Part shown: piece after piece, positions 9,731-28,338 of the stretch | Numbering within the stretch: position 1 is the first letter of the stretch | Layout of the letters: every line of letters starts with the position of its first letter | NCBI GenBank assembly: GCA_026390775.1 | Contig: JAPLFF010000007.1 | Coordinates: 1,426,001 to 1,490,000 of the forward strand | Length of the DNA: 64,000 bases | Direction: 5' to 3' | From: Ignavibacteriales bacterium | Lineage (GTDB): Bacteria > Bacteroidota > Ignavibacteria > Ignavibacteriales > Melioribacteraceae | Made by a program: the position numbers and the translations under genes | The notes under the pieces: model-generated | What the model saw: the letters and a program-made list of their open reading frames with translations, nothing else | What the model was told of the DNA's origin: nothing | Database searches by the model: none

Positions 9731-12013
9731 TTATGGACGGGGTGAAGTCGATAACTTGATATACCTTTCAATCCCGGATTTTCTCTCAGTTACCTTAATA
9801 CCCTTAATCTTTGCGGCTTCTTTTAGCCACCGGGTAAACCTTACCAACTGCATTTCAGAATATTCTTCATACTCATTTTTGAAACTCTCAAAGAGTTCTT
9901 TCTTCTGGAATTCTTTCCCAAGTTCCAATGCTTCAAAATATTCTGCAAATTCCTCACTCGTAGAATCAATCAGTTTTTTCTTTTCAAGATTAATGTGTGA
10001 GCACTGAATCAATCCTTTACACAAATACAGCTGAAGGCAACCAATCATATAATTGAGAAAGTAATTCCATTCCTCATTACTCCATTCATCATAAAATCTG
10101 TGTCCAAATTCATCAATCGGTCTATGTGCTTTGTTGTAGTGATCCGAAAACTCAATTATGAACTGCCTGTCTAACGTTGAATCATCAGATCCTTCAATAG
10201 TGTAATTTGTCGAAATGATAATCTTAGGCGATTGATGAAATGGAATGATTATTTCATTCTGGTTTTTCTTCTCGACAGTTATATCATCCGTGATGATGGA
10301 GAACAGTTTATCAAAGTTGAATTTCTTGGTTACATCATTAAATTCAATAATCGCAGTATCAAGTGTGACAGATTGAAAACTAAAGCTTTTCGAGAAATTA
10401 AAATTCCTTCCATCCAAACGAATAGTTTTCCGCAGCTTTCCAATTGCTTGTGCAACTAATCCTTTGCCGCTTCTTCCATAAGCGCCGTCACTTAACTTTT
10501 CATCAAGAAAGATCACGGCTTTTGCATTCGTTGAATCTTTGTAATTATGAAGTAGATAACCTATTGCACTCCGCAGTGATAAAATCCTATGTTCTTCATT
10601 CTTGCAGATGCTGCAAACAAATTTTTCGAATTCGGACTCTCGTTTATCTAGAATCAGCCGTTTATTTATCACTTGTCTATCCCAAATAAAACCTTCCAGC
10701 TCTTCATATCGCTTCAAGAAAATTTTATCTGCTGTTATCTCAACAAAACAATTCGAGAAAAAGAGAAATCCTTTCTCTTTGGTATCACGCAAAAAATCTA
10801 ATGCTCTTGTTTCCAAGAATTCAAGAAATGTCTGAACAAAATGTTGAGGAGCTCCCTTGATAACAGCATCAATAACTTTTATTCGTGGAGTTTCATGAAA
10901 ATGCTCTTCATCTAATCGCTTCAGATAGTCAATCACAAAATCCTTGATGTTGAATATCTCTACTTCGCGAACGATGTTCTTGCTTACCTTCAGCAGAATA
11001 TAACCACGTTCCAGCTGCAGCTTGCAGAAACCATTTTCTTCAAGAAATCTTTTGAAGTTCTGTTTTGAAATCTTAGTCTTGTCATTCTCGATATACCAGA
11101 ACTTCACAAACGGTTTCTGCCAGCCAAACTTTTCTGCAATGTGGTAAACCGTTCCAAGTGTGATTTTCCCATCATAATCTTTCTGTAGTGAATCGAATTT
11201 TTTATTTATCTCAAATTCTGAATCATGATAATGCTGGTTTCCCAAACTCATTTTCAAAAAATATTTTCTTCCTTCTTCACCAATTGTTACCAAACCGAAT
11301 CCGATCCGATACCATTCCTCATAACAATTAACCGGCAGATTGTTTTCCAAAAATTCAATCGCACTTTCTAATTTCTCTTTGTCAAAACTTGCCGGTTCAA
11401 ATGTTCGTTTACCAATTTCAAGAATTTCTTTTTCTTTCTGTAAATCACAAAACTCTTCCAAACATTCCAACAGCACATCAGCATCAATTTCTTTCGGTGG
11501 TTCTTTGGGTTCATCATACAGAAAAGAATATCTGTTTCCGCTATCATGGTTAGAACAGGGAAGCACTGTCTGCGATTGACCCCACCTCAATTCAATATGA
11601 TCACATAATCCATCATCTTTCAAATACAATCTGTAAACACTTTTAGGACCATTCAATCTCTCCTTCATCTTTTCACTCTCACGTACCTTAATCCAAATAT
11701 GATAACCAACGCCGCTTCCGCTTTTTACAGTCCATAAATATTTTTCACCAAGTCCTAATCGTTTACATATCATCTCAATGATTTCAAAGTTTGTCACTTT
11801 ATCGAAATCAATATTTCGTAAATCATTTATTCCGCATATTCCACCGATTCCGGTTACGCCTGCATTCCAGCCAAACTCGACTACATCTTTTTCAGTTTGT
11901 TCAATCAACTGCCAATTTTCCCAAGCAATAGTTGGCCGTTTACCTTGGATAGGCAGAACATTAAATCCGAAAACATTTTTATAAATCTTTGCCATTTCAA
12001 GAAATTGTATCAT
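9731..12013 (-). CDS. Mobile-element primase-helicase (prim-pol + PriCT-2 + SF3-type helicase)
   Basis: 760 residues. The N-terminal ~190 residues resemble the bifunctional primase/polymerase domain (FNVLPIQGKRPTIAWENW, the acidic NIDFD pair, SGSGVGYHIWIK). A PriCT-2-like helical linker follows around AIEFLENNLPVNCYEEWYRIGF. The C-terminal third is an SF3/DUF5906-like helicase with Walker A in DGAYGRSGKG at about 509-518, an acidic Walker B region (IIEFNDV) and sensor-1 asparagine in ISTNY near 601-604. Such proteins initiate replication of plasmids, satellites and integrative elements. Its start overlaps the integrase stop by 4 bases (ATGA), so both are co-translated. The last residues STSPRP run into a palindromic repeat. 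Confidence 0.85.
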   Translation of the reverse strand: MIQFLEMAKIYKNVFGFNVLPIQGKRPTIAWENWQLIEQTEKDVVEFGWNAGVTGIGGICGINDLRNIDFDKVTNFEIIEMICKRLGLGEKYLWTVKSGSGVGYHIWIKVRESEKMKERLNGPKSVYRLYLKDDGLCDHIELRWGQSQTVLPCSNHDSGNRYSFLYDEPKEPPKEIDADVLLECLEEFCDLQKEKEILEIGKRTFEPASFDKEKLESAIEFLENNLPVNCYEEWYRIGFGLVTIGEEGRKYFLKMSLGNQHYHDSEFEINKKFDSLQKDYDGKITLGTVYHIAEKFGWQKPFVKFWYIENDKTKISKQNFKRFLEENGFCKLQLERGYILLKVSKNIVREVEIFNIKDFVIDYLKRLDEEHFHETPRIKVIDAVIKGAPQHFVQTFLEFLETRALDFLRDTKEKGFLFFSNCFVEITADKIFLKRYEELEGFIWDRQVINKRLILDKRESEFEKFVCSICKNEEHRILSLRSAIGYLLHNYKDSTNAKAVIFLDEKLSDGAYGRSGKGLVAQAIGKLRKTIRLDGRNFNFSKSFSFQSVTLDTAIIEFNDVTKKFNFDKLFSIITDDITVEKKNQNEIIIPFHQSPKIIISTNYTIEGSDDSTLDRQFIIEFSDHYNKAHRPIDEFGHRFYDEWSNEEWNYFLNYMIGCLQLYLCKGLIQCSHINLEKKKLIDSTSEEFAEYFEALELGKEFQKKELFESFKNEYEEYSEMQLVRFTRWLKEAAKIKGIKVTERKSGIERYIKLSTSPRP

Positions 12014-13104
12014 CTTTTTTCTCCGGAATTAATTCTAAATATTTTCACTTCATTTTTGATAGTATTGTTTTGTTCTTTTACTTCGTCCTTCGGAATTCGT
12101 CCATCTAACTTCCCAATCGCTTCCCTCAACGAATCCATATTCAAATGGGAATAAATTTCTGTAGTTGAAATTGAAGCATGACCAAGAAGCTCTTTAATTG
12201 TGTAAAGTGGAACACCCTTCTGTACAAGACTAGAAGCAAACGAATGTCTTAACGAATGGAAGTGAATTGATTTTTCTATTCCTGCATTTCTGCAAGCTTT
12301 TTTGAACCTTCGGGAAAAATAATCTCCGGTAAATTTCTCGCCATCACTTTTACAAAACACATAATCAAAAAGCTTCTCCCCCTTGATAAGGGGGAGAATA
12401 CAAGAGGGGGTCTCTTTCACCTTTGACTTTTCACGTCTCACGAGAATTTCAAACGCCTCTTCACTCATCGGAATAAATCTTTGTGTTCTTCCTTTCGTTG
12501 TAAAATTCTCATCACCAACTGTAATAACTCGATTCTGCAAATCAACATTTTTCCATCTTAGATTAACAATTTCATCTAAACGCATTCCTGTATAAAACGC
12601 TATCATTACAAAATCTTTTACTGTTTCGCTTTTTATCTGATCACTGATAACCGACAACTGATCACTATTAATAAACACCGGTGCAATCTTCTGTCTCTTT
12701 GGTAATTTTACTTTAATAAAAAAGTTTTCAGAAACATATCCCCATTCTCTCGCTTTATTGAATGCTGCTTTAAGATTGCGATAATAAACAACATACCCTT
12801 TCTTTACCTTTTGCTGTAGGTAAATAATAAAGTTTTCAACGTCTTTTAACTCAATTGAATCAATTGGTTTTTGTAATCCTGGTTTACCTTCTTTAATTGA
12901 GAAATATTCAATCAAATAGTTTAGCGCAATTTTTACACTCCGCAGATAAGAAGCTGATTTATTATGTTGAATAAGATTTATATACTCTTCAGTAAACACC
13001 CTCAGCGTTACAACTTCCTTTTGTCTACTACCTGGAATGATTGAAAGCAACAATTTTAGTCTTTCTATATCATCAGCAGAAATATTTTTTAATATCTCAT
13101 CCAT
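12010..13104 (-). CDS. Tyrosine-type integrase of the mobile element
   Basis: 364 residues: an N-terminal SAM-like core-binding domain (about 35-130) and a catalytic domain with R175 (TGMRLDEI), K204, H283-x-x-R286 (HSLRH), H309 (LLGHAS) and nucleophile Y318 (TTEIYSH). All catalytic residues are present, so it is probably active. Two segments look inserted relative to ordinary integrases: DQLSVISDQ at about 148-156 and roughly 223-243, the latter encoded by a short degenerate repeat plus a perfect 11-bp-arm palindrome (12374-12398). It overlaps the primase-helicase gene and lies 45 bases downstream of the excisionase-like gene. Confidence 0.93.
   Translation of the reverse strand: MDEILKNISADDIERLKLLLSIIPGSRQKEVVTLRVFTEEYINLIQHNKSASYLRSVKIALNYLIEYFSIKEGKPGLQKPIDSIELKDVENFIIYLQQKVKKGYVVYYRNLKAAFNKAREWGYVSENFFIKVKLPKRQKIAPVFINSDQLSVISDQIKSETVKDFVMIAFYTGMRLDEIVNLRWKNVDLQNRVITVGDENFTTKGRTQRFIPMSEEAFEILVRREKSKVKETPSCILPLIKGEKLFDYVFCKSDGEKFTGDYFSRRFKKACRNAGIEKSIHFHSLRHSFASSLVQKGVPLYTIKELLGHASISTTEIYSHLNMDSLREAIGKLDGRIPKDEVKEQNNTIKNEVKIFRINSGEKR
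12374..12398. repeat. Perfect palindromic repeat inside the integrase gene
   Basis: Arms TTCTCCCCCTT and AAGGGGGAGAA with a 3-base loop. It is translated in frame on the minus strand as part of LPLIKGEK, in a surface loop region just before the YVFCKSDGEKF segment. The same family of C-run/G-run palindromes occurs at 44227-44250. Confidence 0.75.
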
Positions 13105-15137: not shown

Positions 15138-15941
15138 ATGGCAGTTGATTTGACAAAAGAAAATTTCTTCATTGATGAGAGCGGCGATCCCAACTTCTAT
15201 GGCAACCGTCATAAGTTATTAGTCGGTACACCAGGTTATCAGCCGTTGCTGTTAATTGGTATGATTGTAGCCGAAGATAGAAAACATTTGCGAAATGCCG
15301 TCCTAGATATAAAGAGTCAAATTGAAAACGACCCTTTATATAAATCATTGCATTCTGTAAAACCCGGCTGGTATCTTCATGCAATCGAAGATCATCCTGA
15401 TATTAGAACAAAGTTCATCAATTCTCTAAGAGACTTGGAAGGATTCAAAACATTTATTGTTATCGGTAGGAAGGATGTAAATAGGTTTCATAAATTGCAT
15501 CATAATAAACCAACGGAATTTTATTACGATTTATTGTATCATCTGTTAAAAGACAGAATGAACAAAGAGGATTATATTTATCAATTATTCTTAGCTCAAC
15601 GCCAAAGGACAAAAATGGATAATTTTTCTTTTGCTGTTGCAAAAGCAATTGAAAGAGATAATTCCAAACGTAAAAAGCCAATTGTTGTAAATTATCAATG
15701 CGATATTGTTTTAAGCAGCCAATATCCGGAATTAAGTATTATTGACTATCTGTTATGGGCTTTACAACGTTATATTATTTTGAAAGAAGATCGTTTTTAC
15801 AATGCATTAATTAATAAGTATAATTTGATTATTGATTTGTATGATTCGGAAAACTACACTACTAAAAGAAAAGGAACCAGTAATTACTATCCGAAAAAAA
15901 ATCCTTTTGATTTGAAAAAGACATCTGATTTTGAGGTGTGA
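15138..15941 (+). CDS. DUF3800 domain protein
   Basis: 267 residues starting with the family signature FFIDESGD (residues 10-17). Further conserved acidic/polar positions include the HAIEDHPDIR stretch and SIIDYLLWALQRY near 205-217. DUF3800 proteins adopt an RNase H-like fold with a DES motif and are frequent in mobile and defence islands, but no activity has been established for most. It is a single gene on the plus strand, with no partner immediately adjacent apart from the 57-aa gene 150 bases downstream. Confidence 0.85.
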   Translation: MAVDLTKENFFIDESGDPNFYGNRHKLLVGTPGYQPLLLIGMIVAEDRKHLRNAVLDIKSQIENDPLYKSLHSVKPGWYLHAIEDHPDIRTKFINSLRDLEGFKTFIVIGRKDVNRFHKLHHNKPTEFYYDLLYHLLKDRMNKEDYIYQLFLAQRQRTKMDNFSFAVAKAIERDNSKRKKPIVVNYQCDIVLSSQYPELSIIDYLLWALQRYIILKEDRFYNALINKYNLIIDLYDSENYTTKRKGTSNYYPKKNPFDLKKTSDFEV

Positions 15942-16053
15942 TATAAAAAGAAAACTCCAAAAATTCTCTTAAACCCGTGTCCCGAAAGACAACCTCCGCC
16001 AAAGGGCGAGTTATGATTTTAAGACAACTTTTGAAGTTCCGCTGTAAATATAG

Positions 16054-16070
16054 TGTTTACAGTGTAAACA
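16054..16070. promoter_or_regulatory. Perfect 17-bp palindrome, operator-like
   Basis: TGTTTAC and GTAAACA (7-bp arms, AGT centre) end 20 bases before the ATG of the 57-aa gene at 16091. The spacing is right for a repressor site in the promoter or leader of that gene, as for small phage-type or toxin-antitoxin regulators. Confidence 0.5.
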
Positions 16071-16090
16071 ACAAATATAATTTTTAATAT

Positions 16091-16264
16091 ATGTCCTCAT
16101 CAAAAGACTTAGCATTTAAAGATTGGCAAAAAAAAATAAAAGATGAACTCGGAAAAACTGAGTGGATCACAGTTTATGCCCAAGACAATGAAATAAAGGA
16201 TGTTGATCAATTGTGGAAACATTTTGAAAGATATAAAAGCTGGGTTGATGAACTACTGAAATGA
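16091..16264 (+). CDS. Small hypothetical protein, 57 aa
   Basis: Fifty-seven codons from ATG 16091 to TGA 16262-16264. The protein is highly charged and helix-prone (KDWQKKIKDEL near the start, DQLWKHFERYKSWVDELL at the end), with three or four tryptophans, which argues against a random frame. No clear Shine-Dalgarno sequence is seen. The upstream palindrome suggests dedicated control. It could be a small antitoxin-like or regulatory protein; no family recognised. Confidence 0.5.
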   Translation: MSSSKDLAFKDWQKKIKDELGKTEWITVYAQDNEIKDVDQLWKHFERYKSWVDELLK

Positions 16265-16448
16265 CTTTCAAATATGATATACAGTTATATATTAGTTCAA
16301 TAATAATACATTTATATTAATACACTTAATTTTTTCTATCTTGACGAAAAGTCGATTACCATGTTTGCAGAATTTTAATACTATGGTGTGTATTACACTA
16401 TCTTTGCAAAATTCTCCCATCCATTTATATCACTTTAATTTCGTTTAA

Positions 16449-17216
16449 TCACATCTCCCAAACGAAACTTAAAACTGCATTGTACGAAGGGAAAGAAATA
16501 TTCTGCTCAAATAATTTACGTTGAGATTTGAATCTGAAATCTTTTGTAAACCAAGCATCAGATATTATTTCTTGAGGACCATACGGCAATTCTTTTTTAT
16601 TATAGTAATCAAATGCAAATGAGTATGAATTAACCGGTATTCTTAAATCAACAAATTGGAATGGAAAATCTTTATGGCATCGATACCATTTGATTTGTTT
16701 ATTTTGAGAAAATATAACGGCAATTGGAATGTTACCAACATCAGCATATCTTAAGGCCGTAGCCGATAAGCTGCATGAGAAAAGATTTGCTAAATCAAGA
16801 ATTAATTCTTTGGAGAATTTTACTCCTTTACAAAATTCTAGAAAAAGACTTCTAGGAAATAATATTTCAGAAGCAAAAATATTAGCATCGTTTTCCTGTG
16901 GTCCGTTCTTATTCCAATTTATAAACGAACTCTCTTCACAAATACTAATATTGTCTTTTCCCTTTTGCAATTCAAAATGCCCAATTTCGTGAGCTATAAT
17001 AAATCGTTTTTTACCTTTTTCCTTGATGCTTTTGTTAATGATGATTAGTCCATAATTCTTATTATTAATTAACCTTCCTTCGCAACCAAAGAGTTCTTTT
17101 TCCTGAATAAGTAGACCTCTATCAAAAGCAATTAACTCTAATTCAATTTCATCTGGTGATGAAATACCATATTCCTGTAGGATAATATTTGCTTTAGCAA
17201 TCGCTACAACTGACAT
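16449..17216 (-). CDS. ImmA/IrrE-family zinc metallopeptidase
   Basis: 255 residues. The zinc-binding helix is HEIGH at 76-80 (RFIIAHEIGHFEL) and the third ligand is probably E108 in QENDANIFASEILFPR, the normal ImmA/IrrE arrangement. These enzymes switch on stress or mobile-element genes by cutting a repressor. The C-terminal ~100 residues may be the sensor region. It is the last gene of a three-gene operon: its ATG shares one base with the stop of the 140-aa gene (TAATG). No XRE-type DdrO/ImmR repressor is fused or adjacent; the plausible substrate is one of the two co-transcribed proteins. Confidence 0.9.
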   Translation of the reverse strand: MSVVAIAKANIILQEYGISSPDEIELELIAFDRGLLIQEKELFGCEGRLINNKNYGLIIINKSIKEKGKKRFIIAHEIGHFELQKGKDNISICEESSFINWNKNGPQENDANIFASEILFPRSLFLEFCKGVKFSKELILDLANLFSCSLSATALRYADVGNIPIAVIFSQNKQIKWYRCHKDFPFQFVDLRIPVNSYSFAFDYYNKKELPYGPQEIISDAWFTKDFRFKSQRKLFEQNISFPSYNAVLSFVWEM

Positions 17217-17638
17217 TATTTTCCTTCATTCATAATTTTTGAAAAGAATTCCAGTAATTGACTTTCGTTCAAAATATCCAAAGCTTCTTTATCACTAAGA
17301 TTATCGATGTTTCTGAAACTAGCTTGGAAGGCTTCACTATTCCTATCACCTAAAAGATTAAAAAGAAATTCCTTTGCGTTCGTACCGGTCACTTCTTTAC
17401 TAGTTGCCAAGAAAGAGTTTAGTTTCTCTTTCATTTGGAACAGTTTGATTTTGGTTAATTCTCTCTGTCTCTTTCCGATAAACTTTTTTATTAGTTCTTC
17501 TCCTTCTCTAACTAATAAATCTGGTTGGATACCTGCCAACGATAATTCTTCTTTTACATGATTAATATCTTTTGAATCATCTTCAGAGAGAAATTCAAAA
17601 AGATTTTTTAATTCACTATTATTTTTTATTGGATTCAT
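17216..17638 (-). CDS. Hypothetical 140-aa helical protein between sigma-like and IrrE genes
   Basis: 140 residues, almost entirely charged and predicted helical, with no signal or membrane segment and no recognised family. It contains EGEELIKKFIGKRQRELTKIKLFQMKEKL in the middle and an acidic N terminus. Start codon overlaps the sigma-like gene stop by 4 bases (ATGA) and its stop overlaps the IrrE start, so the three are translationally coupled. Position suggests an anti-sigma or adaptor protein and a possible protease target, but this is inference only. Confidence 0.75.
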   Translation of the reverse strand: MNPIKNNSELKNLFEFLSEDDSKDINHVKEELSLAGIQPDLLVREGEELIKKFIGKRQRELTKIKLFQMKEKLNSFLATSKEVTGTNAKEFLFNLLGDRNSEAFQASFRNIDNLSDKEALDILNESQLLEFFSKIMNEGK

Positions 17639-18228
17639 TTTGGAATCCCTACCTTTCTAACATTTAATTCATTATTTAATTTTCGTCTAAGACGCTTTTT
17701 CATGTTATCTATTTCTTTAATAGATTTGTTCATCTTTTGGGCAATTTCAGTTCTGTCATAATCATCAATTACATATAGTAATAGATCGGTTAACTCTGTT
17801 TCATCTTCAACTATTTTTAGACATTCATCGAGGATCTCTTTATACTCTATTAATTCTTTTGGTGAAGAATCGCTCAAAATATTATCCCAGAATGAATCGG
17901 ATTCTATTTCATTATCTGTTTCATTGATAATCGTTCTTTTTTTATTTTCAAAAGAATGAAGATGTTCATAAAGAAGGCTATTTATGGTGCTAATTAAATG
18001 TTGAAATAATTCCGGATGTACTTTTTTATTCCACTTCCTTTCGCCGACAAAAAGCAATTCGATTGCTTTAAAAACAATTTCTTTTGCTTCCGTACCTCTT
18101 GCAAATTGTTTGCTTCCCTTAACCAGACTGGTAGCTTGAAGCTTTTTCTGTACATAGTTGGCCGCCTTCAAGATCATTGTTTTCCAATCTTGATTCTTTA
18201 ATTCTTCTAATAGGTCGTTCTCATCCAT
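17635..18228 (-). CDS. Sigma-70-like factor (ECF-type architecture, tentative)
   Basis: 197 residues. The C-terminal part has a region-4-like helix-turn-helix (ELTDLLLYVIDDYDRTEIAQKMNKSIKEIDNMKKRLRRKL), the pattern seen in ECF-like factors, where a conserved DYDRxEIA segment precedes the recognition helix. The N-terminal half could match a diverged region 2 (AKEIVFKAIELLFVGERKWN). It heads the sigma-140aa-IrrE operon, and its promoter region (18229-18433) is shared divergently with the MBL/E2-E1-JAB operon, so it may drive one or both directions. Confidence 0.7.
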   Translation of the reverse strand: MDENDLLEELKNQDWKTMILKAANYVQKKLQATSLVKGSKQFARGTEAKEIVFKAIELLFVGERKWNKKVHPELFQHLISTINSLLYEHLHSFENKKRTIINETDNEIESDSFWDNILSDSSPKELIEYKEILDECLKIVEDETELTDLLLYVIDDYDRTEIAQKMNKSIKEIDNMKKRLRRKLNNELNVRKVGIPK

Positions 18229-18433
18229 AATTACCTTCTATACTATATAAGCTATTCACTGTAAAAAAATATCCAAGATAGTAATGGCAAATTTTATTTC
18301 TTCATTAGCTTATAATATAAGGACAAAGAAAGGATATGACAATTATTAAATAATCAGTTGTATCTTTGAATAAAAAGGTAAATAGTAATCTTTTTGAAAA
18401 ATAAATTTAATTGAATATATAAAGGAGTTCGAA

Positions 18434-19594
18434 ATGTCATCAATTTCATTACCTGAACAAGGAATTGTGTTTTGGCCAATAGGTACTGGTGATAGTACAA
18501 CTATTTGTATTGATACTTCTACTGTTATACAAATCGACTTACGCCATTTGAAAAAAAGTGATGATAAAGAAGATCCTCATATTCCTATCATTGATGAATT
18601 AATTAAGATATTACCTAAAAAAGATAAGAATCCATTCCTTGCATTATTTGTTCTAACCCATCCGGATAAAGACCATTGCCAAGGATTTCAAGAATTATTA
18701 AATAAAATAAAAATTGGTGAAATTTGGTTTACCCCACGCATCTTTAGAGAGTATCATATTGATCTATGTGATGATGCAAGTGCATTTAAAAAAGAAGCTG
18801 AAAGACGCGTTAAAGAAATGATACGTCTGAATGGTAATGTTAAAGAATGTGATAGAGTCAGAATTATTGGGTATGATGAATTATTAAAAGACGATGAATT
18901 CAAAAACTTTCCAAAAGAGTATCTTTCGGTACCCGGTCACGAAATAACTTCAATCAACCAATCCAGTTTTAAAAATCAGTTTCGTGCATTTGTTCATTCT
19001 CCATTTAAAGACGATTTAGAAGGTGATAGAAATGAGACTTGTCTTGGTCTCCAAATTACTTTGAAAAATTCAAATAAAGAATTGAGTTCACTTTTATTGG
19101 GTGATATTCATTATGAAATACTTACAAGAATTTTTGATAAATCGGAAAAAACAGACCTTCATTGGAACATATTCTTAGCACCACATCATTGCTCAAAAAG
19201 TGTTATGTACTGGAAATCTGAAGATGACAAAGAAGAAAAACTTAAAGAGGATATTCTTGAAAAAATCAAAAAGAATGCAGATGAATACGGATACATTATT
19301 TCAAGTTCTGAACCAGTTCCATCAAAAAATAAAGATGGTGATAATCCCCCTCATGCACTTGCAAAAGATAGATATGAAGAGATAGTCCCAAAGGATTTTA
19401 TATGTACAATGGAATATCCAAATGAAAAAACACCTCGTCCAATTATCTTCTCATTAGACGATAAAGGTATAAATATAAATGATGAAGGTAAATCTGGAAA
19501 ATCTGGAGAAACATTAAGCGCTTCCATCACAGCTGCTAGAGGAATAAATGATCCTCCTTCAACCAGAACTGGTTTTGGTTCATACAATGAATGA
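18434..19594 (+). CDS. ComEC/Rec2-like metallo-beta-lactamase-fold hydrolase
   Basis: 386 residues. The strand GTGDSTTICID (17-27) opens the fold; the metal site is THPDKDH at 75-81, the HxDxDH variant typical of the ComEC-type branch. A later LLGDIH (222-226) supplies the bridging aspartate, and APHHCSKSV at 249-257 corresponds to the HHGSxxS segment of that branch. It lacks membrane segments, so it is soluble, unlike ComEC. Strong AAAGGAG ribosome site 7-8 bases upstream. Its stop overlaps the start of the E2-E1-JAB gene by 8 bases. Such enzymes occur beside bacterial ubiquitin-like conjugation genes; substrate (nucleic acid, nucleotide or thioester) is unknown. Confidence 0.88.
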   Translation: MSSISLPEQGIVFWPIGTGDSTTICIDTSTVIQIDLRHLKKSDDKEDPHIPIIDELIKILPKKDKNPFLALFVLTHPDKDHCQGFQELLNKIKIGEIWFTPRIFREYHIDLCDDASAFKKEAERRVKEMIRLNGNVKECDRVRIIGYDELLKDDEFKNFPKEYLSVPGHEITSINQSSFKNQFRAFVHSPFKDDLEGDRNETCLGLQITLKNSNKELSSLLLGDIHYEILTRIFDKSEKTDLHWNIFLAPHHCSKSVMYWKSEDDKEEKLKEDILEKIKKNADEYGYIISSSEPVPSKNKDGDNPPHALAKDRYEEIVPKDFICTMEYPNEKTPRPIIFSLDDKGININDEGKSGKSGETLSASITAARGINDPPSTRTGFGSYNE

Positions 19595-21839
19595 AAATCA
19601 AAAGCTTGCTCTAGAACAATTAAAAGCTATTGAAATTGAGGATCGTGGTAATTTTAAGATCATAGACTACTATCAACATGGAAGCAATGACGATTATCTT
19701 TGTGTTAATATTTCTATCCTCACTAGATTATATAATAAATCGATCGTTGGTTTTAATTTTCGTCCACGTGAACGTTTTAAATTGTTAATTCCAAAAGATT
19801 TCCCGTACGAAATCCCTAATATTCTATTTTCTGACTTTCGATATTATGGCAAACCTCATGTACAATGGGGCTCATTTCTTTGCTTGTACCAAGCTCCTGA
19901 TGTTGAATGGGATCCTGCAGAAGGAATGTTTGGGTATATATCACGTCTCGATCTTTATCTTAAAAGAGCTGCTATTAATCAATTAGATCCGAACGACGCA
20001 CCACTCCATCCACCTGTTGCCTATACCAGCTCTAATATTTCTTATAAAATAATTCCAAATAAAAATTCCCCTAGCTTTAATGATGATTACTGGTTGGGTG
20101 CGGCAAAATTAGAAAGACTTAATGATGATTGTCTTTTCATTTCTGATTGGTATGGAACAGATTTATTAAATAGCAAAAGCCGCTATGCCGCGGTTATTCT
20201 TCTTAAAAAAGACATGCCTTTTGAATACCCGTATTTTCTTTTTACTTTAATACATCTCTTAAAGGATCGAGGCATAGATTTAGTTCGTTTTGTTAAACAT
20301 CTTCAAAAAGTAATGGCATTCAATAAATCTGGTACTCCGCTTTTTATTATTATAGGAACACCTATGCGGGGGGATAGTGATAACCGTAAGCAACACTTAC
20401 TTTGTTGGTATCTCGAAACTAAAATTGCGGGTAATCTGCGTGGTTTTGACTCGAATAAATTCAGACAAAACCCAAGTAAAGCCGAAAATCATCTAAACCA
20501 GTTTATAAAATACGCTGAAAAGTCTAAACTTCTTTGGTGCAGTATTCTTGAGAACAGACCCGAAATAATTATCCCGCGTGACCGAGATGCATATACTTCT
20601 TTCTTTACTAATAAAACTATCGAAATATGGGGCTGTGGTGCAGTCGGAAGTCATATAGCAGAAATAATTATTAGAGCCAAACCGAAAAGGCTTTTACTAT
20701 TTGACAATAATATTGTAAAACCTGGTTTATTATCACGCCAGCTTTTTTATGAAGATGATATAGGATTGAATAAAGCAGAGGCAATGAAAAATAGAATAGG
20801 TAAGATTCATTCATTGCTCAATGATGTAAAGGTCGAGTCATTTAATGAGAATATTTTAAAGCGAATGGATAAAAATCATTGGTCAGAGAATAGTGATATT
20901 ATTATTGATACTACTGCATCAAAAAAAGTTCTGCGCAAATTAGATGGTTTGTTAATAAAAGAGAATATTCAAAAAGAGATAATTTCTTTTGTTGTTGATA
21001 GTATCGCAAAAAAAGGAATGGTCGTTTATAGATCTAAGAAGTCATATTGTGGCATTGTTGATTTGATTAGAAAATCAAAACTACATCTTTGTGATAGTGA
21101 TGATAATAATTGGTTGCCATATTTTTATCCTGATAATGGGAGTATTCCTCAAAAACTATTTCAACCTGAACCTGGATGTTCAGACCCGACTTTTTCTGGT
21201 TCAGAAGCAGATATCAGTACTATTTCTGGCCTAATGATGAATTCCATCTCAAGACATTTAGTTGTAACAAATTCTGCGAGTAAATGTATTTTCCTTTCTC
21301 AGAACATTTATAATTATGACGAAGAAAAGTATCACGAGATAACATTTGATAATTATTCAGATGATTTATTACTTAAAGATCCGGTGAACAATTACAAAGT
21401 TATACTCAATAAGCAAGCCATAGAAAACATAAATAAGATAATTAAAAAAGAAAATTCTAGCAGAAATACGCACTTTGAAACTGGCGGATTAATTTTCGGA
21501 GAATGGGATGATTTGAATAAGGTGGTTTATATTGATGATATTTCCGAACCCCCAAAAGATAGTATCGCCGCAGCAAATGATTTTGTATGTGGTATTTTAG
21601 GAACCAAAGAATTAAATGATGAAAGAAAAAAGAAATATAGTGGTTCCTCTTATTTTGTCGGTTTATGGCATTCCCATCCGTTTGGCTCACCAAATTACAG
21701 CGGGAAAGATAAGCATAGTATGGAGTTAGTCGTTACTGAGCTATGCCCACCAAAATCTTTATTGTTGATAATTGCTTATACTAAAAAAGAACAAAACATT
21801 ATGGGATTCGTTTTTGATAAAACTCAATTCGCAAAATAA
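19587..21839 (+). CDS. E2-E1-JAB triple-fusion, bacterial ubiquitin-like conjugation enzyme
   Basis: 750 residues from ATG 19587. Residues about 1-145 resemble a bacterial E2, with the likely catalytic cysteine C99 in WGSFLCLYQ followed by EWDPAEG and ISRLDLYLKRAA, as in E2 folds. Residues about 150-335 form a linking domain that could be an inactive adenylation-like module. The E1/ThiF domain runs from about 345 to 600: GCGAVGSH at 349-356 binds ATP, D373 ends the next strand, and PGCSDPTF gives a candidate catalytic cysteine C531. The C-terminal JAB/JAMM peptidase has E631 (ETGG) and H695-S-H697...S705-x-x-D708, a complete zinc motif. The layout equals CBASS Cap2 plus Cap3 in one chain, but no cyclase or ubiquitin-like gene is seen nearby. 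Confidence 0.9.
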   Translation: MNENQKLALEQLKAIEIEDRGNFKIIDYYQHGSNDDYLCVNISILTRLYNKSIVGFNFRPRERFKLLIPKDFPYEIPNILFSDFRYYGKPHVQWGSFLCLYQAPDVEWDPAEGMFGYISRLDLYLKRAAINQLDPNDAPLHPPVAYTSSNISYKIIPNKNSPSFNDDYWLGAAKLERLNDDCLFISDWYGTDLLNSKSRYAAVILLKKDMPFEYPYFLFTLIHLLKDRGIDLVRFVKHLQKVMAFNKSGTPLFIIIGTPMRGDSDNRKQHLLCWYLETKIAGNLRGFDSNKFRQNPSKAENHLNQFIKYAEKSKLLWCSILENRPEIIIPRDRDAYTSFFTNKTIEIWGCGAVGSHIAEIIIRAKPKRLLLFDNNIVKPGLLSRQLFYEDDIGLNKAEAMKNRIGKIHSLLNDVKVESFNENILKRMDKNHWSENSDIIIDTTASKKVLRKLDGLLIKENIQKEIISFVVDSIAKKGMVVYRSKKSYCGIVDLIRKSKLHLCDSDDNNWLPYFYPDNGSIPQKLFQPEPGCSDPTFSGSEADISTISGLMMNSISRHLVVTNSASKCIFLSQNIYNYDEEKYHEITFDNYSDDLLLKDPVNNYKVILNKQAIENINKIIKKENSSRNTHFETGGLIFGEWDDLNKVVYIDDISEPPKDSIAAANDFVCGILGTKELNDERKKKYSGSSYFVGLWHSHPFGSPNYSGKDKHSMELVVTELCPPKSLLLIIAYTKKEQNIMGFVFDKTQFAK

Positions 21840-21905
21840 ATTTGTGTAAAACATGGAACTATTATTTAGAAGGACTTTATAAACTTTTAACCCAATATTT
21901 AGGGC

Positions 21906-23180
21906 TTATTCGGTTATAGGCATTGGGCAATAAAGCTTTACCTGTATTTCCGTTAACGCTTCAGAATGTCTGCTTAATAAATCTATTTCTTTCTCGGTAA
22001 GTGCTTTCAAACTAGTACTTATCTTTTTTACGAAATTAATTTCTTCATTTGAAAGTCCGTTCTGTATTATTTTTTCATATCCGATCGATTTTTTTAAATG
22101 CTCAGTCATCAACTTCTTATTTTTCTTCATCTCATCAGTAATATTATGATATTCTAGTAAATGTGGTCGAATCTTATCTTTGCTTGCAGCAGTGTAGAAA
22201 CCCGCAAGACAATTTTCATAATTCCAATCAAGCGAATAATATCCGATCTCCCATAGTTTATCTTCTTTTTCTTCATAAATGCTTTGAAGAAATTGTACGC
22301 TCTTTATCCTTTTCATCATCACACTCATTATCCTTCCCAAAACCGGCAACGGATTTATACCGTAAAACTTTTTAACAAAAGGTGCGGATGCATCGCTTAC
22401 TATTACTATATCGGTTTTATACTTTGGATCGTTACCCGCTACCCTGTAAATCCCTTGATTATCATATACGCCACCGTCAACTAATTTTGGTCTTATTAAT
22501 TTCCCATTACTTTTAAATCTAAGAACTGTTGGAGAAAAAGCATAAGGAACCGCTGTTGAACATGCAACAGCAACAGCAATTGAAAAATCCTTGGTATCAA
22601 AATTTGGATCTATGTTATATGGTGGATATTTATAGGAAGAATCAAACGAGTATTCTTTTGTAAACGAAAATAGTGTACCTGTATCAAGATTCGTAGAATT
22701 AATAATTAACTGTGGTTTTTCCGGCAAATCTTTTAATTCTTTTTCTTTATAAATCAATGAATCATATTGTTTCCGAATTAAATAAGTTGTCGGAAATATT
22801 TTGTAGAAAAAACATCCGATAAATATTAATAGAAGAAGCAGATAAACCACTGTCCAACTACAGCTATTGGTTAAATAATAGAATACAAATACTGTTGCTG
22901 TTAGAATAAGTGCGCGAATAACAAAACCTGATGATAAACAAGCACGAAGAATTAAATTCTTTTTCAGTATCTCTTGAAAGTTTTTCCAAAAGAAATCGAA
23001 ATTATCTTTATTGAAAACATAGTAAGCACCAACTATAGAACCTCCGGAAATTGTAGAAATCACATCGATATTTTTAAGAATTCCAAGCTCATTCAATTTC
23101 TTCAATGTACCCAAATGAAATGCTGCTGCTCTAAAACCGCCTCCGGATAATGCCAATCCAATTTTCTTATTTTTATGCAT
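21906..23180 (-). CDS. Patatin-like phospholipase with membrane segments
   Basis: 424 residues from ATG 23180, chosen for its AAGGTGA ribosome site; an upstream start adds nine residues. The oxyanion loop is SGGGFRAAAFH (12-22), the nucleophile is probably S45 in TISGGS, and the catalytic aspartate lies in LVDGGVYDN. Between them (about 95-145) two hydrophobic helices indicate membrane attachment. The enzyme would hydrolyse membrane phospholipids. Patatins are common effectors of cyclic-nucleotide defence systems (CapV). Here it is convergent with the E2-E1-JAB gene (67 bases between the ends), so a shared function is suggested by neighbourhood only. Confidence 0.88.
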   Translation of the reverse strand: MHKNKKIGLALSGGGFRAAAFHLGTLKKLNELGILKNIDVISTISGGSIVGAYYVFNKDNFDFFWKNFQEILKKNLILRACLSSGFVIRALILTATVFVFYYLTNSCSWTVVYLLLLLIFIGCFFYKIFPTTYLIRKQYDSLIYKEKELKDLPEKPQLIINSTNLDTGTLFSFTKEYSFDSSYKYPPYNIDPNFDTKDFSIAVAVACSTAVPYAFSPTVLRFKSNGKLIRPKLVDGGVYDNQGIYRVAGNDPKYKTDIVIVSDASAPFVKKFYGINPLPVLGRIMSVMMKRIKSVQFLQSIYEEKEDKLWEIGYYSLDWNYENCLAGFYTAASKDKIRPHLLEYHNITDEMKKNKKLMTEHLKKSIGYEKIIQNGLSNEEINFVKKISTSLKALTEKEIDLLSRHSEALTEIQVKLYCPMPITE

Positions 23181-23263
23181 ACATTCACCTTCATTACAAA
23201 ATAACAATACATCTCAGATCAAAAATGCATATAAAATTTCAAATATTCCTTCATGCACAAAAA

Positions 23264-23653
23264 TTACTTTCTGATTTTTTCCACAATCTTTTCACCTGTT
23301 CGACCGACAACATAACCACCTAAACCAATTTGCAAAAGCAACCACGCTTCATTACTCAATCTAAATGCAAGCAAACCAAAACTATCACACACAACAAGAA
23401 CCAAAAATGTAAGCATTGTAATTGGTCTCCAATTTCTTTGAAGCCAGCTTTGTCCTTTCGCTTCCGCTTCAACAATTCTGCTTTGTGAATCAATAAGCTT
23501 TGCTTCATACTCCAATGCCTTACCCAAAAACTCATTCTCAATTTTCGTCAATTCATTTTGCAACTTTCCACGCTCTTCATCAGTGGTTGTAAGGTTATCA
23601 ATCAAATCAGTAATCGGTTTTACAATTCCACTTAAAAAATCTAACACTCCCAT
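23264..23653 (-). CDS. Phage-type holin (3-TM holin family)
   Basis: 130 residues from ATG 23653, which follows an AAGGAGG site; the longer frame upstream is built from repeat sequence. An amphipathic N-terminal helix (VLDFLSGIVKPITDLIDNL), a coiled coil rich in E/K, then SWLQRNWRPITMLTF and two hydrophobic segments with a GGYVVGRTGEKI end. The QRNWRPITM motif is characteristic of the holin-of-3-TMs family that makes the hole for endolysin release. It is the last gene of the three-gene lysis cassette. Confidence 0.85.
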   Translation of the reverse strand: MGVLDFLSGIVKPITDLIDNLTTTDEERGKLQNELTKIENEFLGKALEYEAKLIDSQSRIVEAEAKGQSWLQRNWRPITMLTFLVLVVCDSFGLLAFRLSNEAWLLLQIGLGGYVVGRTGEKIVEKIRK

Positions 23654-23654
23654 T

Positions 23655-23915
23655 TTAACCTCCTTCTTTTTCTGAATGCTGATGACTGATTGCTGAAAGC
23701 TTAATATTGTAAATCTCTCGAATAATATTTTTCTCAACGTCACTCAATTTATTATGAAGCTCTTCAAACCGAGATAAATAATTTTTCTCAATCGAAAATG
23801 ATTTCTTTTTCGTTTCATCAACATCTTTTTCAATCCTTTTAATCCTTGACCAAAACAAGAAGTTCACCAAGCTTAAAAGTCCTCCAATAATCCAGATATT
23901 AATGTTCTCACTCAT
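23655..23915 (-). CDS. Small membrane-anchored coiled-coil protein of the lysis cassette
   Basis: 86 residues. One N-terminal membrane helix (IWIIGGLLSLVNFLFW) is followed by a charged coiled coil (about 22-70). This is the layout of XhlA-like or spanin-like accessory lysis proteins. Its start overlaps the endolysin stop by one base and it ends one base before the holin start, so the three are a tight operon. The C-terminal KLSAISHQHSEKEGG is encoded by a degenerate ATCAGTCATCAGCATTCAG-type repeat, so the natural end may have been altered. Confidence 0.7.
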   Translation of the reverse strand: MSENINIWIIGGLLSLVNFLFWSRIKRIEKDVDETKKKSFSIEKNYLSRFEELHNKLSDVEKNIIREIYNIKLSAISHQHSEKEGG

Positions 23916-24403
23916 TAAATACTTCTCACGTCTAGCGTTTCACCTTTCACGTTCTCATAAACCGTTTTCCCATAAAACTTTTTCGAAATCATCACATCTT
24001 TTCGATTCAATTCACCATTCCAAGAAACATGAATCCACTTCCCGAATTCATAAATCAATTGATCAAAAGAAAGTCGTTGCAGAACAATATTGAACACATC
24101 AACCAAATTCATAGAAGGAACAACAAAGTCCGTAGCTTTTCCTTCAAGGTGTTGAGAATTAAATCTTCCACCTACTGCAGCATTTACATCGAATGAACGA
24201 AAACCGGAATTAATAAAAATCGGAACATTGATAATTTCTCTCAATGGTTGAAGTATATTCACGCATAAGTAACTCAGATTCTTAATCTGAGTATCATTCG
24301 GATCATTTCTATAACCATGTCTTTCCGCAACTTGAGAAATTGTAAACTCATCAAGACTAAAACTTGCACTGAGCATAGTCGAAGTGTTATCAGAGAGCTT
24401 CAT
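23915..24403 (-). CDS. M15-family peptidoglycan peptidase (endolysin)
   Basis: 162 residues. The zinc site is H85 (SQHLEGKATD), D92 and H125 (KWIHVSW), the normal M15A/peptidase M15_3 spacing, with SGFRS just before. Enzymes of this type cut the peptide cross-links of peptidoglycan and serve as phage endolysins. The first ~16 residues (LSDNTSTMLSASFS) derive from a CACTTCGAC..GCTCAGTGC-type repeat also present near 25233-25258. It is the first gene of the lysis operon. Confidence 0.88.
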   Translation of the reverse strand: MKLSDNTSTMLSASFSLDEFTISQVAERHGYRNDPNDTQIKNLSYLCVNILQPLREIINVPIFINSGFRSFDVNAAVGGRFNSQHLEGKATDFVVPSMNLVDVFNIVLQRLSFDQLIYEFGKWIHVSWNGELNRKDVMISKKFYGKTVYENVKGETLDVRSI

Positions 24404-25382: not shown

Positions 25383-26066
25383 ATGGCAATCGTAAATGGA
25401 AATGTCCTCGGTAACTTATCCGGAAAGCTTGGCAACCTTTCCGCGAGAACAGTTGATGGTCGAACAATTCTAGCAGCTCGTCCATCCAGTTTCAACGCTA
25501 GTCAAGAACCGGCAGTTTTGGAAGTTCGACAGAAATTCTCTGTCACTGCAAAGTTTGCAAGTGCAATTCTGGCTCTCGCTTCACTAGTTTCAATTTGGAA
25601 GAAAGTAAGAAATGTAGCCAGCTCAGTTTTCAATGAAGTCTTTCAGAGTAACTTTGCTTACTCTTCCACAGAGAAGCCGACAGAGCAAAACATTATTGTC
25701 CCGGAAGGGTTTCCTTTGCAGATCACAACTGCTGCAGTAGAAGCTGATAAAATTACAGCTTCACTTCCGGCGCTCAATACTGCATCTGTCTTCGGCGCTG
25801 ATGAAGTTAATCTTTCTGCAAATGCTTTAGTCTGTTATTATGACCCAACGAATGAGAATGATGATCCATTCAAGATCATCCCGCTATCAAAAGAAGTCGC
25901 TAATTTCAACTTCGCTCAGACTTACGATCTAGAAATGGATTTCAACGTTTTACAAAAAGCTACTGCGGCGAAGTATCAACACAGTATTCTCTATGTGTGT
26001 GTAGTAACGAAAACCGCTGAGGGTAAAGTAATCCAGAACTCCGGGACATTCACAAAACTTAGCTAA
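25383..26066 (+). CDS. DUF6266-like protein
   Basis: 227 residues from ATG 25383, which follows a clear GGAGG; upstream codons come from a degenerate ATTCTCAATTCTC repeat. The N-terminus GNVLGNLSGKLGNLSARTVDGR matches the start of DUF6266 proteins, which are common as several copies in Bacteroidota and Ignavibacteria, often in phage-like surroundings. The rest is beta-rich with regular Ala/Thr content. Function unknown; a structural or surface role in the phage-like segment is possible. Confidence 0.7.
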   Translation: MAIVNGNVLGNLSGKLGNLSARTVDGRTILAARPSSFNASQEPAVLEVRQKFSVTAKFASAILALASLVSIWKKVRNVASSVFNEVFQSNFAYSSTEKPTEQNIIVPEGFPLQITTAAVEADKITASLPALNTASVFGADEVNLSANALVCYYDPTNENDDPFKIIPLSKEVANFNFAQTYDLEMDFNVLQKATAAKYQHSILYVCVVTKTAEGKVIQNSGTFTKLS

Positions 26067-26115: not shown

Positions 26116-26775
26116 TCATTTACTTTTTATAAATTTTATAGAAGTAACCGGATGAATTTCCCAGCATGTATATGACTTCATTCCTTTTTTACCCCTTGGA
26201 TTTCCTTTTAAATGAGATGCATCAAAAAATAATTGACCGGTTATTTCCACATACATTTTATGTTCCATTATATTACCTGCACCTGGTTCTTTTCCTTTTA
26301 AGAATTCCTCTTTAATAAAATCTCTCACAACTTTACATTTTTCACGCAACTTACTATCTGAAACAAATCGCGCATCCGGATTTGGAACTTCTACTATTAG
26401 ACAACTATCCTTCCATTCTGCTGTATTCCTAATCTGTACATGATAATCGCCATCCCTATGATATTTGGAATCATTTTCTAATGCTACCAAGTGCAAATAT
26501 CCTCTCGTAGTTACAATATCTCCTTCTTTCAAACCTTTCTGAACCGGGTTAGGAATTCTCTTAGCTCCATATTCTTTAGCTGAATAAGATTCAATTGGAT
26601 TGTTGAGTGCTAATAATTCAGTTAATGGAATTGTCATCTTAGTAGACTTTTTCGGAAGACTTGTTTTAATACTCCATCTCTCAACACCGGGATTTAATTC
26701 TGTGGTTTGCCCATTGCTGACGCTCAACGAAAAGAGGTAAATAAGTAAGATGAATGAGTAATTCATTCTTCTCAT
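26116..26775 (-). CDS. Secreted protein of unknown function, OB-fold-like
   Basis: 219 residues with a Sec signal (about 1-23, cleavage after SNGQ region). The mature part has EGDIVTTRGYLHLVALE, GDYHVQI, CLIVEVPNPD, the VEITGQLFFDASH strand and a terminal CWEIHPVTSIKF. I recall this conserved pattern from a family of hypothetical secreted proteins whose strands suggest an OB or nuclease-like fold. No activity known. It stands alone, convergent with the DUF6266-like gene. Confidence 0.6.
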   Translation of the reverse strand: MRRMNYSFILLIYLFSLSVSNGQTTELNPGVERWSIKTSLPKKSTKMTIPLTELLALNNPIESYSAKEYGAKRIPNPVQKGLKEGDIVTTRGYLHLVALENDSKYHRDGDYHVQIRNTAEWKDSCLIVEVPNPDARFVSDSKLREKCKVVRDFIKEEFLKGKEPGAGNIMEHKMYVEITGQLFFDASHLKGNPRGKKGMKSYTCWEIHPVTSIKFIKSK

Positions 26776-26883
26776 ATAAACTCCATTGTTAAATTAGGGT
26801 TGCAATTAACATAACTGAATTATCAATTAAAATAAATCAATAACATCATCATGAATCTTTTCCCGATGAAAAGAGAGACCTAT

Positions 26884-27291
26884 TTTCAGTTCGGTCAATA
26901 ATTTTTCATCAAAGACATTCAAAAATAAAAGCACTCATGCATACGAATTTCGAGTATTTCGATTTAATATTTCTATTGCTTTTTTACCAACAGCTTTTTA
27001 GATTTCATGTGGTACTTGTGTCTAATGTTCCCCCCACGTTAGATGCAAAAAAGCCGCCAATAGGCGGCTTTACTTTTTAAAATAATATTCCATTTCGCAA
27101 AATAATATTGTCTTTCGTTTCCTCTCTCCAAAAATATTTTGCTCACAAACCCTTTAACGCCATTTGTCTATACTCACTCACTGCGCTCATACTTCGCTGA
27201 TGTTCGTTCGCATAGTCCAAAAGGCTAAAATCTACTTTCAATTAAACTTTCAGTTCGGTCAATAATTTTTCATCAAGAGCATTCAAAAATA
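26884..27291. repeat. Degenerate direct repeats of 44 bp
   Basis: 26884-26927 and 27248-27291 are 44-bp direct repeats differing at three adjacent positions (TTTCAGTTCGGTCAATAATT start). Further fragments sharing AAAAATATTT and CTTTAACGC occur near 27130-27165 and 27285-27320. The 26776-27710 interval thus looks like a pile of decayed repeats without a recognisable gene. Confidence 0.6.
27047..27078. terminator. Bidirectional Rho-independent terminator
   Basis: AAAGCCGCC (27050-27058), loop AATA, GGCGGCTTT (27063-27071), followed on the plus strand by ACTTTTT and preceded by AAAAAA, giving a T run in the minus direction. The gene it serves is not obvious. Confidence 0.65.
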
Positions 27292-27477: not shown

Positions 27478-27681
27478 AATTTTGCCCGCTGGTAAACAAG
27501 CTTAGTGTTATTCGAATCTTAGTAACCAATCGAGGCAAGGGTATATGAAACTTACCCTCTAATTAATATCAATAAATTTTAATCAATCGGGTTTCGCCCT
27601 TGCCTTGAATTATCATCTTTTCTTACACCATCATGGTAACAAATCATTTTTTCGCAAGAGCGTGACTAAGCGGGCAAAATT
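27478..27681. other. Nested inverted-repeat element, possible structured RNA or MITE-like relic
   Basis: Perfect 13-bp terminal inverted repeats (27478-27490 AATTTTGCCCGCT and 27669-27681) close a ~204-bp segment. Inside, AGGCAAGGG (27533-27541) pairs with CCCTTGCCT (27597-27605), and small hairpins sit at 27539-27557 and near 27629-27640. No gene is encoded in it. The long closing stem with an inner stem resembles a rod-like noncoding RNA, or the ends of a non-autonomous transposon; both readings are open. Confidence 0.45.
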
Positions 27682-27710
27682 TGTTTTTTAACGTCGTAAA
27701 AGGTTAAGTC

Positions 27711-27899
27711 GTGGCATCGGTAATAGTTCACTACTCAAAAAGGCACAAAGGTTTTCTTGTTCGGTTAATTCAATTAAAAGAAAAATTCTTTGTAAATGTA
27801 TTTACTCCATCAGGCTCACTTCATTCACAATCATTCAAAACATATTCATCTGCAAATACTTTCTTAAATGCTTTTATCAAATCACTTAAAAAATCTTAA
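27711..27899 (+). CDS. Small basic hypothetical protein, 62 aa
   Basis: GTG start at 27711 preceded by AAAAGGT (about 8 bases). Sixty-two residues, basic and beta-rich (VIVHYSKRHKGFLVRLIQLKEKFFVNVF), ending in a short helix. No family recognised. A second small frame with a strong ribosome site starts 12 bases downstream, suggesting a two-gene unit. Confidence 0.45.
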   Translation: MASVIVHYSKRHKGFLVRLIQLKEKFFVNVFTPSGSLHSQSFKTYSSANTFLNAFIKSLKKS

Positions 27900-27911: not shown

Positions 27912-28019
27912 ATGTTATCAGAAGAACAAAAACAGCAATTGAGACAAAAGAAAAAAGAAAAGATAACCAAATTCGGAAGTTGCATAACTTCCGGTTCTTT
28001 CTCTTATTTGACTATTTAA
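27912..28019 (+). CDS. Leader-like 35-aa peptide
   Basis: ATG 27912 with a strong AAAGGAG site 8 bases upstream; 35 codons rich in Lys/Glu/Gln (EEQKQQLRQKKKEKI), then FGSCITSGSF. A perfect 8-bp hairpin lies inside the 3' third of the frame. Could be a small protein in its own right or a leader peptide. Confidence 0.4.
   Translation: MLSEEQKQQLRQKKKEKITKFGSCITSGSFSYLTI
27974..27993 (+). promoter_or_regulatory. Hairpin within the 35-aa frame
   Basis: CGGAAGTT (27974-27981), loop GCAT, AACTTCCG (27986-27993), followed by GGTTCTTTCTC. Stem is perfect; the T content after it is modest. Translation of the small frame would disrupt it, as in attenuators. The 28020-28225 stretch after it shows no gene. 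Confidence 0.35.
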
Positions 28020-28254: not shown

Positions 28255-28266
28255 AGCTTATTAAGA

Positions 28267-28338
28267 GCTGGCTATGGGACTCGAACCCGCGACCTGCTGA
28301 TTACAAATCAGCTGCTCTACCAACTGAGCTAAGCCAGC
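28267..28338 (-). tRNA. tRNA-Thr(TGT)
   Basis: 72 bases folding into a full cloverleaf. Acceptor stem GCTGGCT/AGCCAGC, D arm with AGTTGGTAGAGC, anticodon arm GCTGA-TTTGTAA-TCAGC giving anticodon TGT (reads ACA, threonine), and T arm with GGTTCGAGTCC. The CCA end is not encoded. A terminator follows. Its 3' end faces the accessory block at 9.7-27.7 kb, a common integration target position. Confidence 0.97.

Follow-up and report, generated by a model that had tools for sequence, protein, structure and literature searches.

A covarying RNA structure at the tRNA-proximal end of putative satellite-like elements in Ignavibacteriales, a candidate leader of small-gene operons

The DNA considered here, which we call the window, is a stretch of 64,000 nucleotides from an Ignavibacteriales bacterium (assembly GCA_026390775.1, contig JAPLFF010000007.1). 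It contains most of what we read as an integrated element and, close to a tRNA gene, a segment closed by an inverted repeat that is the subject of this study. The features that matter are the following, with helices named P1 to P3 and A6 being the alignment presented below.

9731-12013, minus strand: primase-polymerase of the element (Prim-Pol and PriCT_2)
12010-13104, minus strand: second tyrosine integrase of the element (Phage_integrase, E 4e-40)
23264-24403, minus strand: holin (23264-23743) and M15 endolysin (23915-24403), from family matches
25383-26066, plus strand: gene of a 227-aa protein, which precedes the RNA in almost every locus
27478-27490, plus strand: 5' arm of the closing stem P1, exact reverse complement of 27669-27681
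27498-27510, plus strand: internal-loop motif AAGCTTAGTGTTA, whose AAGCTT is invariant (31/31 rows of A6)
27533-27541, plus strand: 5' arm of P2, AGGCAAGGG (exact pair, also paired in the alignment)
27542-27596, plus strand: apical part P3, which forms a helix of unconstrained sequence in most copies and a weak one in the window
27597-27605, plus strand: 3' arm of P2, CCCTTGCCT (exact pair, also paired in the alignment)
27669-27681, plus strand: 3' arm of P1 (exact repeat, paired in the alignment)
27684-27689, plus strand: T-tract directly 3' of P1, five T being invariant (31/31 rows of A6)
27711-27899, plus strand: 62-aa ORF, first gene 3' of the RNA, with only a sub-threshold match to Pfam KR
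27912-28019, plus strand: ArdC-N-like second gene, a 35-aa remnant (relatives have ~134 aa)
28265-28338, minus strand: tRNA-Thr(TGT) gene, 3' end towards the RNA
28265-28308, no strand assigned: right copy of the attachment repeat, in the 3' part of tRNA-Thr, an exact copy of L125:5529-5572

A sequence-only reading had drawn attention to a 204-bp segment closed by perfect 13-bp inverted repeats, and these are indeed exact reverse complements (AATTTTGCCCGCT at 27478-27490 and AGCGGGCAAAATT at 27669-27681). The inner 9-bp pair that it reported is present as well (AGGCAAGGG from 27533 and CCCTTGCCT from 27597), and the segment is gene-free as described, the ORFs that lie mostly inside it all being of 28 aa or less. 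By itself, the 13-bp repeat is ordinary for such an AT-rich window, because when the window is shuffled with its dinucleotides kept, at least one perfect repeat of this length and comparable spacing turns up in 56 of 100 cases. What is beyond chance is the fold, together with conservation that includes covariation, not the size of the repeat. The plus strand folds at -55.2 kcal/mol vs -35.2 +/- 4.2 for shuffles (z -4.78, equalled by 0 of 200), and the minus strand of the segment folds well too (z -3.99). The conserved unit is slightly longer than the 204 bp first delimited, since it reaches the T-tract. Judged from the alignment, it encodes a structured RNA of ~211 nt, which consists of P1, two large internal loops of conserved sequence, P2, a variable apical P3 and the T-tract. 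Further 5', a direct repeat (TTCAGTTCGGTCAATAATTTTTCATCAA...) occurs twice, at ~26883-26928 and 27248-27290 of the window.

The RNA is found once in its own 3.0-Mb genome, both by BLAST and by a covariance model (R1, built from 16 copies). Apart from this copy, the model matches only its minus strand there and three places at E 0.17-0.18. A BLAST search with 281 bases gives matches in 12 of 57 genomes, own genome included, one of which (33 bases in genome G023, locus L012) was rejected as not being this RNA. Within the order Ignavibacteriales, R1 detects the RNA at E 0.01 in 25 of the 164 genomes searched, genome G073 having seven strong places, a weak one and an antisense repeat of a strong one. 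In a sample of the phylum it is detected in 11 of 395 genomes, every one in the window's family, by a search whose stricter filters lost some matches and missed known copies in G020 and G030. Matches come from Melioribacter (which belongs to Ignavibacteriales), Ignavibacteriaceae, Stygiobacter and other Ignavibacteria, and all but one are metagenome-assembled relatives of that group; only a weak match of the protein, in an assembly of Prevotella, falls outside it.

Searching with the 227-aa protein yielded 52 loci (51 genome contigs and one viral contig). The model matches the plus strand in 37 of them, strongly in 34 and weakly in three (L086, L106 and L107), and these matches represent 34 distinct RNA sequences. 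Among the 15 unmatched loci, five stop short or break off (L079, L082, L094, L102, L114), inspection by eye shows a rod that has diverged or is of another kind in five (L090, L097, L101, L103, L117), and five have no visible rod (L104, L112, L113, L116, L119). The protein is thus not always accompanied by an RNA that can be recognised. The IMG/VR contig found by the protein search (L120) carries both protein and RNA, the latter identical to that of L109; 27 viral contigs picked by core motif gave no match to the model at E 0.1, phage and plasmid collections had no match, and no end overlaps were seen in 14 short loci. A common foreign stretch, probably an insertion sequence, is present near 11990 in L087, whose RNA loses its 3' half, and near 8940 in L113.

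When the covariation check that the sequence-only reading had proposed is run on these homologues, the paired columns of P1 and P2 covary. Alignment A6 has 31 rows, i.e. the window and 30 of the 37 plus-strand model matches; left out were L071, L115 and L120 (RNA identical to a retained row), L087 (foreign DNA replaces the 3' half) and the diverged L086, L106 and L107. On these 31 distinct rows, 99.2% of the cells of P1 (11 pairs) and P2 (nine pairs) are paired (99.1% for P1 alone, 99.3% for P2 alone), two-sided changes are seen in 6 of the 20 pairs, and not one of the five measures computed is equalled by any of 500 shuffles. Because this shuffle control ignores the relatedness of the rows, two other observations also matter, namely the spread over genera and a control in which the partner is slid by 1-3 columns, whereupon pairing falls to 33-60%. 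All 38 copies fold with z < -2 (mononucleotide shuffles), and in other genera two further small hairpins, with compensating changes by eye, lie just 5' of the RNA. The sequence of P3 differs in nearly every copy, z being < -1 in 24 of 33 distinct apical parts (L093 was clipped by a script pattern, and L106 and L107 were passed over in this test), and the window's own P3 folds weakly (z -0.23). As for the strand, there are eight G-U cells vs one C-A cell on the plus strand once pair 58/223, usually G-U, is excluded, an excess that favours the plus strand as the RNA; by folding energy, the minus strand comes out lower in 21 of 38 copies. The comparative evidence for an RNA structure is strong.

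The RNA had also been placed close to a tRNA at the edge of an island, which agrees with what we find: tRNA-Thr lies at 28265-28338 on the minus strand, and the RNA sits at the tRNA end of an integrated element bounded by 44-bp repeats. The exact left copy of the repeat (L125:5529-5572, i.e. contig C7:1417529-1417572) lies left of the window, 101 nt from an integrase gene (L125:5674-6711), which gives an element of ~36.8 kb that starts 8.5 kb left of the window. Integrative elements at tRNA genes are recognised by such direct repeats of the tRNA 3' end on either side of a stretch that includes an integrase gene. A third copy of the repeat, with two changes, is found 3 kb further left (L125:2461-2504, contig C7:1414461-1414504) and hints at a second, tandem element or a remnant. 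The element also encodes an excisionase-like protein, and the 16 of its ~37 listed ORFs that were scanned with PHROGs include no head, tail or terminase family. A phage satellite would be expected to have replication genes, to lack a capsid and terminase set of its own and to be mobilised by a helper phage. In our best reading, the carriers of the RNA would be an unnamed family of integrative, satellite-like elements. Defence-type cargo occupies 15138-23207 of the window: a DUF3800 protein, a patatin-like phospholipase, a CapP-like M78 peptidase (16449-17216, E 4e-56) and an E1-E2-JAB fusion (19548-21839, E 1e-70) beside an MBL-like protein.

To compare gene settings, we used a table of 44 loci, a few of them redundant, which comprises the 37 model matches (including all seven omitted from A6), L153, the window itself and five variants that were located by eye and given ends set by hand (L090, L117, L097, L101, L103), of which L097, L101 and L103 are only candidate homologues of this RNA. 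An opposite-strand tRNA gene with its 3' end facing the RNA follows in 26 of the 44 loci, at 297-1192 nt in 25 of them and at 3253 nt in L153, and the tRNAs concerned vary widely in specificity (Thr, Gln, Arg, Lys, Val, Met, Asp). Six of the 18 loci with no following tRNA have an integrase gene next (L080, L081, L095, L099, L108, L097), and in four of these six a tRNA-end-like stretch lies between RNA and integrase, an order that a tandem arrangement or a circle would give.

The most regular neighbours are small genes downstream. Matches to five families (the 62-aa ORF, ArdC-N-like, a 53-aa ORF, a 65-aa zinc-finger-like ORF and SymE-like) occur within 1.5 kb 3' of the RNA in 41 of the 44 loci. 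The first match is 21-100 nt away in 37 loci and at 222-298 nt in L106, L107, L090 and L117. No small gene is found in L118 and L087, where 376 and 239 nt of contig remain, nor in L105, which has enough downstream sequence yet no known small gene. The ArdC-N-like match is above the Pfam cut-off (33.3 vs 22.6 bits) and the SymE-like matches are under it (26.1 and 23.2 vs 29 bits); since the window's own ArdC-N-like gene is shortened to 35 aa, this copy may be decaying. Cis-acting leaders of the attenuator or riboswitch type are arranged in this way, with a gene following the conserved fold closely and at a steady spacing.

The sequence-only reading had offered two possibilities, a structured noncoding RNA, which is upheld by the covarying homologues and the tRNA edge of an integrated element, and the relic of a non-autonomous transposon (MITE), which is not, there being one copy, no duplicated bases and one gene setting. 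Terminal inverted repeats would suit a MITE, as would the upstream flanks of L073 and L080, which diverge from other loci right up to P1. However, the search for a second copy and a target-site duplication found a single genome copy and no duplicated bases outside the arms (the flanks CTAAGGCATCAT and TGTTTTTTAACG have no common direct repeat), other genomes have several copies that are always at element ends, identical small-gene families lie downstream throughout, and the inner helix P2 covaries. A MITE, already largely refuted, is thus extremely improbable. It is quite unlikely that the segment is a DNA-level site forming a single-stranded hairpin by which the circular element would be replicated, recombined or packaged. 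In favour of such a site are its place near the attachment end and the minus strand, which folds at least equally well in 21 of 38 copies. One-sided changes favour plus-strand G-U, although DNA also has G-T pairs, and the position of the RNA is tied to the genes that follow and not to the att repeat (297-3253 nt to the tRNA).

Upstream, the picture is looser. The 227-aa gene lies within 3.5 kb in 42 of the 44 loci, with a gap of 254-3100 nt, a presence that is circular inasmuch as nearly all these loci were found through the protein. An unbiased set is given by the 30 loci that were retrieved with the RNA model (L035-L064), and in 27 of these the gene is in the fetched flank. It lies 1.76 kb upstream in L058, i.e. 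beyond the fetched flank, the contig of L050/L154 starts 342 bases from the RNA, and L059/L153, which has no 227-aa gene within 9 kb, keeps the RNA and the small genes. The tight neighbour is thus the downstream side, and L153 also led us to abandon the idea that the RNA has an obligate partner in this protein. The same locus argues against a plain transcription terminator of an upstream 227-aa operon, which a stem and T-tract 3' of that gene in most loci might suggest; as such a terminator could do without P2, P3 and internal loops of conserved sequence, we hold this to be very unlikely.

The 227-aa family travels with these elements. The window's protein, which we presumed to resemble DUF6266, cannot be assigned to it, PF19781 having no match in its own genome, and it matches nothing in Pfam (E 0.1), PHROGs and NCBIfam (E 0.01) or PDB sequences (E 1); one relative has a sub-threshold match to YscW (E 0.078). 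An AlphaFold model (mean pLDDT 82.5) predicts an Ig/FnIII-like part at residues ~105-227, with a best structural match of Z 8.1 (rmsd 3.1 over 96 residues) in comparisons that concerned mainly this part, a predicted fold that is too common to tell a function. L046 was removed from the protein alignment owing to an internal stop. Between the 227-aa gene and the RNA, the window has a minus-strand ORF for a probably secreted protein (26116-26775), also seen in L020.

The reading that we prefer, with a probability of roughly 0.55, is that the RNA would be an attenuator leader of the tRNA-proximal small-gene operon, in which P1 and the T-tract would form a conditional stop. It is suggested by the covariation of P1 and P2, the invariance of the T-tract and AAGCTT, the tight spacing of the first gene, the eightfold excess of G-U over C-A cells on the plus strand, and the fact that L153 retains RNA and small genes without the upstream gene. 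Structure and setting can be read off the alignment and the loci; transcription and regulation we infer. Transcription would enter from upstream on the plus strand, and a closed P1 beside the T-tract would keep RNA polymerase from reaching the first small gene. Binding of a partner (protein, RNA or ligand) to the conserved loops, including the AAGCUUAGU loop, would open P1, so that the small-gene operon would be read and, in a circular element, possibly also the integrase gene beyond attP. A full Bacteroidota-type promoter consensus is absent from 37 of 38 copies, L105 having two, and P1 with its T-tract was not among the matches of a short-loop terminator scan. P1 is unlike a usual terminator because its arms are ~180 nt apart and its G+C block is ~5 bp from the T-tract. 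Against a leader stand the lower energy of the minus strand in those 21 copies and L105 without a small gene.

A tentative alternative, suggested by analogy, is a discrete trans-acting small RNA that would end at P1 and the T-tract and control expression or immunity, as proposed for the PLE satellites of Vibrio cholerae. This would suit a unit whose two ends pair with each other next to a T-tract and whose P3 differs between copies; in PLE, according to PMC7567579, the inter-inverted-repeat (IIR) transcript is the most abundant and has antisense homology to leaders. Such an RNA would not require tight spacing to a downstream gene, and in the window's element the longest complementary run is 16 (G-U allowed) vs 14-20 in five shuffles, which makes this rather doubtful. 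A more ambitious and unlikely reading is that the RNA is an immunity or compatibility determinant of an undescribed tRNA-targeting satellite family, whose variable apical helix would set specificity among elements that reside in one cell (one genome has seven strong copies) and which would keep the tRNA-proximal operon and the circularised integrase silent until induced.

The segment has no match at gathering score among 4227 Rfam 15 families (6S, GOLLD and ROOL included), and permissive thresholds brought none near its gathering score. A retron msr-msd RNA was rejected, as the whole own genome has no RVT_1 match at E 0.01. Run on the window and seven homologous loci, Rfam found only tRNA and one DUF3800-VIII RNA (RF03075, L022:7222-7285, above gathering score), which lies upstream in one related element. 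A literature search, mostly outside subscription journals, brought up no description of the RNA or the element among the matches listed. The RNA thus has no Rfam 15 match and is of a kind already known (leader or satellite control RNAs), its function being a proposal. With it, a little-studied order gains a family of structured RNAs whose covariation is clear, and integrating elements with defence-type genes gain a marker of their tRNA-proximal end.

Among known systems, riboswitch and attenuator leaders have a conserved fold, a T-tract and then the first gene. The same order is seen here, with the first gene 21-100 nt away; unlike in those leaders, the T-tract stem spans the whole RNA, and the genes are those of a mobile element. 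The CI RNA of P4 and the C4 RNAs of P1/P7 are short antisense RNAs of ~70-80 nt. Like them, the present RNA would be leader-encoded and act in the leader of a downstream operon; unlike them, it has no antisense partner above shuffled controls in the window's element. Both are named in PMC7567579. GOLLD and ROOL have in common with our RNA that they are structured RNAs of mobile elements close to tRNA genes, from which it differs by being shorter and having no such Rfam match. Both are several times longer than its ~211 nt. They are described, in PMC12286853 and PMC7567579, as structured noncoding RNAs of phage-type elements that are often near tRNA genes, and the latter mentions a comparable ICP1 RNA of ~800 nt. 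The PLE IIR is, like our segment, a noncoding stretch closed by inverted repeats within an integrated satellite-like element; unlike the IIR, which is transcribed and antisense to its own leaders, the present RNA is known from sequence and likened to it by description. Since PLE and P4 suggest that satellites may be controlled by inverted-repeat or leader RNAs, the 34 distinct sequences found here, together with the window, offer an independent set on which this can be tested.
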